DNA of 42,899 nucleotides from a virus, in the IMG/VR virus record IMGVR_UViG_3300037585_004131, positions 1 to 42,899 of that record, one strand, 5' to 3'. The stretch's first letter is position 1. Each line of letters begins with the position of its first letter. A program made the translations under genes and the position numbers. The notes below the pieces were generated by a model that made no database searches, was not told the origin of the DNA, and saw only the letters and a program-made list of their open reading frames with translations. This document shows, piece by piece, positions 39,481-42,899 of this stretch.

Positions 39481-41094
39481 TTAATTTTTACCCTCATATG
39501 TTCTCGCCATAGTTATAATGGCGTTAGTTGATAAAATTGTTACTGCAACTGAAACTGCATTTTGTAAGGCACTTTTAGTTACTTTCATTGGGTCAATAAT
39601 TCCCATATCAATCATGCTCCCCCATTTTTCATTCTTAACATCATAACCTTTTCCTTGTTCCTTTTTACAGCAATATAGTTCTTCAGGGTCTAGTCCTGCA
39701 TTCTCTAAAATCTGACGTAATGGAGCAATGAGAGAATTATATAAAATTGCGTCAGCAATTTTTTTGGAATTTTTTTCAGAATTAGGTTTATGTTCTGCTG
39801 CAATGTCGTACAATGCTATTCCACCTCCCGGTAATATTCCTTCTTGTAGTGCAGAACGCACCGCACATACAGCATCATCTACTCTATCGAACAATTCTTT
39901 TTGCTCAATATCAGTTTGCCCTCCTACATATATTACACCAATACCACCGCTGAGTGATGCAATGCGTGATAGTATAAACTCTTTATCTTCTTTCTTTGTT
40001 GTAATCTTATGAGCTTCCCATAATTGATTTACTCTTTCACTTACATCAGTTTGTACGGTAGATGATTTTATTAATATAGAAGACTCTTGTCCTATTATAC
40101 ATTTATCTGCATGACCTAAATCAGCAAATGTAATTAAGGATAAGTCATCTCCTGTTTTTTCTGAAAAGTATTTAGCACCAACCGAAACTGCTATATCTTG
40201 CATAAGCTCGTGTTGTTTATATCCAAATGATGGAGGACCTATTACGCAAAGCTGTAATCCATTCTTTACAACATTAGCTGCAAGAGTGTTTACTACATTA
40301 ACAGACATAGGTGCAATAATTAATAATTTCTTTTGTTCATTAATGATTGGTTTTAATATTCCTTCAATCGCTAATACATTAGTAATCTCTGCATCGCTTA
40401 CAAGCACATGCACATTTTCTAATATACTTTCATCTTTCTTTTGATTGTTAACGAATAAAGGTGAAGTCCATCCTCTATCTATTTTAATTCCATTAGTCGT
40501 CTCGCTATATGTTTCACTCGACTCTGACTTTTCTACAGTAACGATTCCGTTCTTTCCTACTTTCTTATATGTATCCGCTATTACTTTACCTATTGTCTTA
40601 TCATTATTAGCTGAGATAATAGCTACATCTTTTAATCTTTTACTCGTAATCTTTTTAGATGCCTTTTTTAAATTTCCAATAACGTTGTCGGTTTCACGCA
40701 CAATCTCTCTTAGAACTTCAGCTCGATTTGTGGTTTCATCCATTAACTCGTTACCTTGCTTTACTAACTCTTCTGTCAATACGATAGCTGTTGTTGTTCC
40801 GTCTCCGGCTGAGGATGCTGTATTGTCTGCAGCTTGTTTCATCATACGCACCGCTAGATTCTCTACAGGGTCTAATAAGTCAACGGCTTTCGCTACAGTT
40901 ACTCCGTCTTTAGTTACAGTTAATCCTCCTGTTACATATTGAGACTCTATCAATACTGTATTCCCTCTAGGTCCTAGAGTGCTCTTTACTGCATTTGCGA
41001 TTTGGGTGATACCGGAGATTAGTTTATTTCTCCCCTCTGTTCCAAAAGATAATTCCTTTGGATTAAAGCCGGATGGCATTTTAATTGGATTCAT
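39481..41094 (-). CDS. groEL: Phage GroEL chaperonin, 537 aa
   Basis: ATP-dependent chaperonin subunit for folding phage (probably capsid or fibre) proteins. The nucleotide site is intact: TLGPRGN at 39-45, TKDGVTVA at 61-68 (catalytic Asp63), GDGTTTA at 97-103, RVDDAVCAVRSAL (Asp matching GroEL Asp398) and PGGGIALY. The equatorial and apical regions are at normal length; the C-terminal Gly-Gly-Met tail of bacterial GroEL is absent (ends ARTYEGKN). Sequence is divergent but clearly group I. It has its own TATCTTTG promoter 21 bases upstream and sits upstream of groES. Full-size chaperonin-co-chaperonin pairs on phages are uncommon. Confidence 0.93.
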   Translation of the reverse strand: MNPIKMPSGFNPKELSFGTEGRNKLISGITQIANAVKSTLGPRGNTVLIESQYVTGGLTVTKDGVTVAKAVDLLDPVENLAVRMMKQAADNTASSAGDGTTTAIVLTEELVKQGNELMDETTNRAEVLREIVRETDNVIGNLKKASKKITSKRLKDVAIISANNDKTIGKVIADTYKKVGKNGIVTVEKSESSETYSETTNGIKIDRGWTSPLFVNNQKKDESILENVHVLVSDAEITNVLAIEGILKPIINEQKKLLIIAPMSVNVVNTLAANVVKNGLQLCVIGPPSFGYKQHELMQDIAVSVGAKYFSEKTGDDLSLITFADLGHADKCIIGQESSILIKSSTVQTDVSERVNQLWEAHKITTKKEDKEFILSRIASLSGGIGVIYVGGQTDIEQKELFDRVDDAVCAVRSALQEGILPGGGIALYDIAAEHKPNSEKNSKKIADAILYNSLIAPLRQILENAGLDPEELYCCKKEQGKGYDVKNEKWGSMIDMGIIDPMKVTKSALQNAVSVAVTILSTNAIITMARTYEGKN

Positions 41095-41964: not shown

Positions 41965-42097
41965 TTATCAACATATAACTTGCTCATTATCAACGCTTTA
42001 CATAGTTATTAACATAAAGTAAATAAAATTAAACGAAAATAAAACTAAAATTATACGAGAATTAAAAAAAAGTTTATATCTTTGCTGTATTATTAAC
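41965..42097. repeat. Four TTATYAAC sites (iteron/DnaA-box-like)
   Basis: TTATCAAC at 41965-41972 and 41987-41994, TTATTAAC at 42006-42013 and 42090-42097, all on the plus strand. The first three are spaced 22 and 19 bases apart, close to two helical turns. With the next base, TTATCAACA and TTATTAACA differ by one base from DnaA-box forms TTATNCACA. An AT-rich stretch lies between the third and fourth. Consistent with an origin or repeated operator. Confidence 0.45.
42077..42084 (+). promoter_or_regulatory. Bacteroidetes-type -7 element (TATCTTTG) for rightward genes
   Basis: An exact TAnnTTTG match on the plus strand, 41 bases upstream of the ATG at 42126. The predicted leader contains a small GCCGAAAGGC hairpin (42099-42108, GNRA tetraloop). 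Confidence 0.6.
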
Positions 42098-42125: not shown

Positions 42126-42710
42126 ATGAACACAGATTTAAAACAATTAATTTACGAAATGTTGACAGAGTCAACAGGTAAACACATGCTAGATTCCGGT
42201 ATGACTGACGGGAGACATTGGCAGAGAAACCAAAAACGCAGTCTGACAGATTTCGAGAATGACCAACCTGAAACCATAGAAAAAGATTCATCTGATTGGA
42301 TACAGAGAGAAGTATCAGTCTTCCATTTTTTAGCCGGTGAAGATTCAGCTCTAGAGCTAGATTATATCTGCAACAACTTTAATGAAATTCAATCAGGTGC
42401 AACAGATTGGAACGGCGACTCTGAAGCGTGGGGAGTATCTCTCGAAGCGTGGGACGATTTAAAAGAGGGCAACGAAGTCGTTGAGGGCAGAACCTTCAAC
42501 ACCTACAACGCAGAGAGTGACCTCTCTCAAACTCTTCAAGGTGGATGGCTAGAGATTAACGGCGAATCTTACTTGTTGTTACAGATACACAACGGAGCTG
42601 ACGTCAGAGGAGGTTACACAGATGCGAAGCTCTTCAAGTGTGATGATATGATTATAAATCATTGTCTTTATGAGTACGAAGAGCAAGAAGAATTAATCGA
42701 AAGAATTTAA
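42126..42710 (+). CDS. Conserved phage/plasmid protein of unknown function, 194 aa
   Basis: First gene of the rightward unit. The N-terminus LIYEMLTESTGKHMLDSGMT leads to GRHWQRNQ, and the conserved C-terminal block is GRTFNTYNAESDLSQTLQGG followed by YLLLQIHNGADVRGGYTDAK. I recognise the HWxRNQ, NTYNxExxLSQ and QIHxGADVRGGYTDA signatures from a family spread over phages and mobile elements, function unknown. It is acidic and has no membrane span. GC content in this gene looks clearly higher than in the late genes, which hints at different origin. Start chosen by the A-rich leader after the promoter. Confidence 0.8.
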   Translation: MNTDLKQLIYEMLTESTGKHMLDSGMTDGRHWQRNQKRSLTDFENDQPETIEKDSSDWIQREVSVFHFLAGEDSALELDYICNNFNEIQSGATDWNGDSEAWGVSLEAWDDLKEGNEVVEGRTFNTYNAESDLSQTLQGGWLEINGESYLLLQIHNGADVRGGYTDAKLFKCDDMIINHCLYEYEEQEELIERI

Positions 42711-42731: not shown

Positions 42732-42794
42732 ATGAATGCATATGATATAGCAATACAAGACATTTCTCAAGAGTTTGAGATTGTTTTAGTATAA
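42732..42794 (+). CDS. Short ORF downstream, 20 aa
   Basis: ATG after an AACCAAAAATT leader opens MNAYDIAIQDISQEF and stops after 20 codons (TAA 42792-42794). The frame stays open past the stop to the window edge, which is probably incidental. The peptide may be a leader peptide for the structured RNA that follows, or a truncated gene. Support is weak. Confidence 0.4.
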   Translation: MNAYDIAIQDISQEFEIVLV

Positions 42795-42830
42795 CCAAAC
42801 CGACCTGAACAAGTCGAGATAAAAAGGTTC

Positions 42831-42879
42831 TCTGTCGTAAGGTGTGTGCCTTACCTGAAGAAGCGAAAGCAGAAACAGA
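42831..42879 (+). ncRNA. Candidate hammerhead ribozyme
   Basis: The sequence folds as a hammerhead with stem III open: stem III TCTGT (42831-42835) pairs fully with ACAGA (42875-42879). C42836 is the cleavage base in the triplet GTC. Stem I is GTAAGG (42837-42842) with CCTTAC (42849-42854) and a TGTGTG loop. The core CTGAAGA is at 42855-42861, and GAA at 42872-42874. Stem II is GC-GAAA-GC (42863-42870) flanked by an A-A mismatch (42862/42871), where a G-C pair is usual. All strictly conserved core bases are present. The mismatch and short stem II make activity uncertain. A second small hairpin (CGAC/GTCG, 42801-42816) lies upstream. Confidence 0.55.
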
Positions 42880-42899
42880 TTATAAATTTAATAACAAAC

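Follow-up and report, generated by a model that had tools for sequence, protein, structure and literature searches.

A predicted short-stem-II hammerhead ribozyme behind a pseudoknot at a gene junction of a flavobacterial-type phage

Does the extreme right end of a viral contig encode an RNA that cuts itself and, if so, what would such an RNA do at the junction between two genes? The window analysed here, an entire IMG/VR record (42,899 bases), ends 20 bases past the ribozyme candidate. By its sequence, predicted structure and comparison with relatives, the stretch 42831-42879 (+) is a type III hammerhead: a small RNA at the end of the contig that is very likely to cleave itself immediately upstream of a gene. 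Read directly from the window, the CUGANGA...GAA core (CUGAAGA at 42855-42861, GAA at 42872-42874), the A15.1-U16.1 pair and a residue other than G at H17 are all present, and three helices with an open stem III surround the core, as judged from the fold and from the covariation of stems I and III. Stem III pairs UCUGU (42831-42835, +) with ACAGA (42875-42879), the U16.1-A15.1 pair included (TCTGT/ACAGA), and covaries in alignment A3. Stem I is a hairpin (GUAAGGU-GUGU-GCCUUAC, 42837-42854, +) in which GTAAGG (42837-42842) pairs with CCTTAC (42849-42854), with a U·G closing pair and a GUGU loop; it is found in the fold of the 3' product, and five of its seven pairs are altered on both sides among relatives. 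Stem II is minimal (AGCGAAAGCA, 42862-42871, +), with two G-C pairs (GC/GC, 42863-42864 with 42869-42870), a GAAA loop and an A42862·A42871 mismatch at 10.1/11.1, where a first G10.1-C11.1 pair is absent; from the sequences compared, that pair is a frequent feature of hammerheads and not an absolute requirement. Conservation extends to loop I (UGUGUG/A) and loop II (GAAA/AAAA), as a loop I-loop II contact would require, and the core is invariant across alignments A3 and A5. By analogy with the family, cleavage is predicted between C42836 (C17) and G42837 (+). All three stems are present in the minimum-free-energy RNA fold, whose energy is unremarkable (z -1.2), and the pattern of core and stem II (CTGANGANGCNNNNGCNGAAA) occurs once in the window and in none of 100 shuffles. 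The original prediction of a hammerhead with a type III fold is borne out, and its coordinates, core, perfect 5-bp stem III and 6-bp stem I proved exact.

It is the relatives that settle the identity of the hammerhead. A covariance model (R2) built from 41 canonical phage hammerheads, from which the window and all short-stem-II sequences were excluded, assigns 52.9 bits (E=1.5e-12) to the ribozyme of the window, and both models built here (R1 and R2) recover it strongly. Two of the checks that had been proposed in advance were run. The first, compensatory change in the stems of relatives, was found for stems I and III. The second was a search with Rfam covariance models, in which the lack of a hit above threshold was to count against the candidate; RF00008 detected no hammerhead in the window at the gathering threshold or when relaxed to E up to 10. 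Since the two canonical hammerheads of a related contig, L002, also fall under the RF00008 cut-off (36.4 and 33.4 bits for a cut-off of 48.5), we ascribe this miss to a gap in the model: RF00008 is simply strict for this hammerhead group. The window resembles RF00008 (Hammerhead_3) in strand order, open stem III, CUGANGA...GAAA core, A15.1-U16.1 and H17=C, but differs from it in a stem II cut to two G-C pairs and in the A·A at 10.1/11.1. A full structural descriptor gave 143 matches in 2.0 Mb of viral DNA but none once this DNA had been reversed or shuffled, and a scan of viral contigs in which only stem III and the core were fixed yielded about 40 clear hammerheads with a perfect stem I, a set apart from the chance matches with no stem I. 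The short-stem-II variant pattern found no match in bacterial genomes. Compared by DNA similarity with named phages, the window end had no match, and two of three other ribozyme loci were likewise unmatched, the third matching coding DNA only.

A protein search with the 194-aa ORF of the window retrieved one close relative whose sequence continues downstream, the 65-kb contig L002. It carries an orthologous ribozyme at the matching place, and each of the two gene junctions that follow has a canonical type III hammerhead, which bears out the claim that the element sits at a gene junction. The ribozyme and its 20-nt leader are nearly identical in the window and L002, whereas the flanks have diverged. 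The gene downstream of the ribozyme in L002 is a 64-aa ORF starting 23 nt past it, in support of the earlier expectation that the downstream partner lies beyond the window; the leader of this gene (42880-42899, +) is identical in L002, with the ATG 3 nt further on. On the ribozyme strand, the upstream gene is the 194-aa ORF (42126-42710, +; phrog_11344), followed by a 20-aa ORF (MNAYDIAIQDISQEFEIVLV, 42732-42794, +) that lies upstream of the pseudoknot described below and ends 6 nt before it. The latter ORF differs between the window and L002 by five synonymous changes and one amino-acid change and is probably a real short gene. The 194-aa ORF is also common to Mycobacterium, Gordonia and Erythrobacter phages (32-40% identity), an unexpectedly wide spread. 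A Bacteroidetes-type -7 element (TATCTTTG (TANNTTTG), 42078-42085, +), assigned from the general Bacteroidetes consensus and identical in L002, is a possible promoter of the operon, its activity being presumed.

The position of such ribozymes relative to genes is strikingly constant. In a set of 104 distinct type III ribozymes, about 27 nt separate the 3' end from a start codon. The following gene shares the strand of the ribozyme in 95/98 cases, and a long reading frame starts no more than 60 nt away in 90/103 (median 27 nt, 5-95% range 17-35); for the antisense of the 5' flank, which served as the control, the figure is 3/43. In hosts that use ribosome-binding sites, these fall in the gap between ribozyme and start codon. 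The upstream gene is on the opposite strand for 14/32 short-class ribozymes and 3/71 of the others; a ribozyme in such a setting would trim a leader and cannot split an operon, and a role in defining 5' ends covers both cases. Sorted by PHROGs, the downstream genes belong to no single type, and most are without assigned function.

The 5' side of stem III is also occupied. An independent structure abuts it with little or no linker, spanning from shortly past the preceding stop codon to stem III. For 58 non-redundant ribozymes, the 45 nt immediately 5' of stem III had a median folding z of -2.8; the median was -0.3 for 150 intergenic regions taken as controls from the same contigs (p=1e-10) and -0.1 for the sequence farther upstream. 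The flanks played no part in the search for ribozymes, so that this structure constitutes an independent observation. The upstream hairpin sequences are mutually unrelated. One hairpin, GUGUCUUCAAAGACAC, recurs before hammerheads in L078, L066, L076, L005 and L182, as if it were a copied part. An intrinsic terminator was rejected by inspection for the upstream hairpin, since stem III, and not a U-run, comes next.

In the window, in L002 (two copies) and in other contigs, a predicted H-type pseudoknot stands in the place of the hairpin, as indicated by covariation and by the co-occurrence of its P1 helix with a hammerhead. In the window (42801-42830, +) it joins stem III without a linker and reads CGAC-CU-GAAC-AA-GUCG-AGAUAAAAAG-GUUC: P1 pairs CGAC (42801-42804) with GUCG (42813-42816), P2 pairs GAAC (42807-42810) with GUUC (42827-42830), and the A-rich loop lies at 42817-42826 (all +). 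The general order is P1, CU, P2, one base (AA in the window), P1', A-rich loop, P2' and stem III. Both strands of P2 are swapped between contigs (GAAC/GUUC in the window, GAGCA/UGCUC in L002, AGGCA/UGCCU in L189), and 6/9 pairs are altered on both sides among 21 distinct sequences, a covariation with a bias, since P1 and P2 were requirements of the scan that gathered these sequences. Two further scans left P1 unconstrained. In the first, 5/7 sites with four P1 pairs were followed by a hammerhead, or 6 with the inclusion of L258, whose core has a one-base insertion (Fisher p=0.0003 with L258 included); in the second, 7/10 were, two copies with a core insertion being scored as no. In both scans, sites without P1 were almost never followed by a hammerhead. 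The invariant nucleotides of the pseudoknot are CCU...CA.G and the A-rich loop. An extra A in the hammerhead core (CUGAAUGA for CUGANGA) is found in L275 (6031-6120, +), L283 (3765, -) and L258 (2338, +), behind the same type of pseudoknot as that of the window; these are possibly slow or dead copies. The pseudoknot matched no Rfam family or riboswitch, and a known riboswitch was rejected on this ground, as was a frameshift signal because no slippery sequence is kept between the window and L002. Within the searched library, the layout of structure, ribozyme and ribosome-binding site in its pseudoknot form appears to be newly described here; the upstream pseudoknot, the conserved 20-aa ORF and the multi-copy arrangement of hairpin, ribozyme and ribosome-binding site all go beyond the original prediction.

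The computations presented here show the ribozyme with its variant stem II, the structure on its 5' side and the fixed spacing to the start codon. We consider it likely that the hammerhead, the upstream pseudoknot and the downstream leader with its ribosome-binding site together mark an mRNA boundary, as an element made of RNA only. Cleavage, end protection and an effect on expression, which we infer, would proceed as follows. A transcript started at the promoter ahead of the 194-aa ORF would extend through the junction, and the ribozyme would fold and cut it after C42836. This would leave the upstream mRNA with a terminal 2',3'-cyclic phosphate just past a compact structure (the pseudoknot in the window), which is expected to slow 3'-5' exonucleases. 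The downstream mRNA would carry a 5'-OH with the stem I hairpin immediately behind it, and its start codon would lie about 85 nt from this end; these two features should prevent decay that depends on a 5'-monophosphate and provide the gene with a standard leader. Protection of the ends of both RNAs is expected from general knowledge of RNA decay. The processing of a phage transcript, which had been advanced as the likely role, is supported as a reading of the locus. On a wider scale, the chances seem to us evenly balanced that hairpin or pseudoknot, hammerhead and ribosome-binding site constitute a widespread, modular and protein-free mRNA-boundary element of lytic phages, in which the upstream structure and the ribozyme would evolve as exchangeable parts and a single cut would make protected 3' and 5' ends, the pseudoknot form being perhaps a new RNA family that blocks exonucleases or senses.

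A genuine hammerhead could instead only split polycistronic phage RNA or trim leaders, the upstream structure shielding its folding from ribosomes and from the sequence upstream without protecting any end. The extent of this structure, which runs from near the preceding stop codon to stem III, fits an insulating spacer equally well, but insulation by itself leaves unexplained why the start codon follows at so constant a distance (5-95% range 17-35 nt), as well as the strength of the long hairpins and the conservation of the pseudoknot, and we hold this alternative to be rather unlikely. A regulated ribozyme, in which the pseudoknot would sense a ligand or a phage protein and switch cleavage so that the downstream gene responds, seems to us improbable. 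The pseudoknot does have invariant nucleotides, and it abuts stem III, so that P2 could stack and affect cleavage; however, an unrelated plain hairpin occupies the same place in most other phages, which argues for a structural rather than a sensing role, and Rfam offers no riboswitch match.

The preferred reading, a boundary element built around an active hammerhead, also has to accommodate the weak stem II to which the original prediction had drawn attention. The two base pairs and the A-A mismatch are indeed present, but comparison of sequences indicates that they are a conserved, recurrent variant and not a defect, although cleavage could be slow. A 22-nt pattern with CTGANGA, NGCRAAAGCN and GAAAC fixed and stems I and III unconstrained, an unbiased test as neither of these stems was required, retrieved 100 stretches at 75 distinct sites; 68 of the 75 fold as hammerheads (39 type III, 29 type I) and 7 as neither, several of these 7 resembling coding coincidences. 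Among 31 distinct short-class type III sequences, 9/15 pairs are altered on both sides, and stems I and III covary. None of 500 shuffles was as good on four of five covariation measures (share of paired cells, pairs changed on both sides, cells changed on both sides and covariation score), the percentage paired being biased upward and the pair counts partly biased, since stems I and III were requirements of the scan that gathered the sequences. The pairs of stem II are invariant in the short class, and covariation there thus covers stems I and III only; in 41 canonical hammerheads all three stems covary, stem II included. The minimal stem II of the window is conserved in 31/32 short-class type III sequences, and positions 10.1/11.1 are A·A in 31/32 and C·A in 1/32; in 72 other ribozymes these positions are non-G-C in 34, with U·U in 27 and A·A in two. 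A stem II of two base pairs with U10.1-U11.1 occurs in active natural hammerheads, U-U being the best tolerated mismatch at 10.1/11.1 (Perreault et al. 2011, PMC3088659), and the accessible portions of that text hold no mention of A·A at this position. The short stem II A·A class appears to be a new description within the searched library. Type I hammerheads of phage contigs (L146, L130, L135, L148 and others) share the AGCGAAAGCA stem II with type III. A decayed or chance look-alike without activity, to which the 2-bp stem II, the A·A mismatch, the plain folding z-score and the score below the Rfam threshold might point, is highly improbable: in many phages the core and stem II are conserved while stems I and III covary, the sequence is nearly unchanged in L002 despite drift of the flanks, and the null searches gave 0 matches.

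The phage itself had been thought to be crAss-like (Crassvirales); this was rejected, as its terminase and a structural protein match those of flavobacterial phages. The best matches of the terminase are MW202828 (75%), Elemovirus (45%) and Cellulophaga phages (37-39%), those of the structural protein MW202828 (67%) and the Flavobacterium Elemovirus (47%); Tenacibaculum phages and Maribacter phage Panino are also among the matches of these proteins, MW202828 is uncultured, and the families matched are Pachyviridae and Pervagoviridae. The only crAss-type phage in the match list, the gut phage cr272_1, has a terminase with only 24% identity over 68%. Gene order, groEL included, is shared with MW202828. 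Based on these matches and on gene order, the phage resembles a podovirus of the flavobacterial-phage kind. The GroEL-like chaperonin is encoded at 39481-41094 (-; PF00118, phrog_5725), and the MW202828 copy adjoins a GroES-like gene. A search of MW202828, a close relative, and six other named phages gave no detectable hammerhead; as none is detectable in MW202828, the ribozyme is not essential in this lineage.

Two systems familiar from elsewhere help to place the element. In phage T7, the host protein RNase III cuts hairpins at the junctions of early genes and leaves structured 3' ends. The likeness, a polycistronic phage transcript cut at gene junctions, is an analogy of function only, and unlike the T7 sites the window RNA would cut itself and need no host factor. 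RiboJ-type insulators are engineered type III hammerheads placed upstream of a ribosome-binding site, which yield a defined 5' end and have a hairpin added downstream. The window element is likewise a type III hammerhead just upstream of a ribosome-binding site, but it is natural, and its extra structure lies upstream and not downstream. Hammerheads in phages are already known. Cleavage of tandem prophage hammerheads has been demonstrated both in vitro and in E. coli, and the HHphage site of haloviruses HF1/HF2 lies 13 nt upstream of a start codon (Perreault et al. 2011, PMC3088659); the same authors cite an early halovirus mRNA whose 5' end was mapped to no more than 3 nt from the HF1/HF2 hammerhead site. 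As in the phage and prophage hammerheads of that study, several ribozymes occur per genome and at gene junctions, and transcript processing is proposed. By contrast, the accessible portions of PMC3088659 make no mention of A10.1·A11.1 combined with a 2-bp stem II, or of a hairpin or pseudoknot directly 5' of stem III. A literature search for natural insulator ribozymes and for ribozymes of crAss-like phages found nothing closer than this paper.

The purpose of phage hammerheads has been a question since 2010-2011, and the constant layout of 104 ribozymes points to one testable role, in which both ends of phage mRNAs would be set without host RNases. Elements with a short stem II are probably undercounted, since this variant is invisible to Rfam. 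All 68 cultured Elemovirus records (68/68) contain one identical or near-identical ribozyme region each, and as the cultured pair Elemovirus / Flavobacterium sp. BAL314 carries one ribozyme, its RNA ends can be mapped directly. The Elemovirus type III hammerhead (MT497071, 17864-17922, -) immediately precedes the opening gene of the leftward operon and lies about 180 nt past a Bacteroidetes-type promoter motif. A structured leader of about 180 nt is predicted between the promoter motif and the cut site (L244, 3914-4095; MT497071, minus strand), and this leader, which the ribozyme would release, is perhaps a small RNA.
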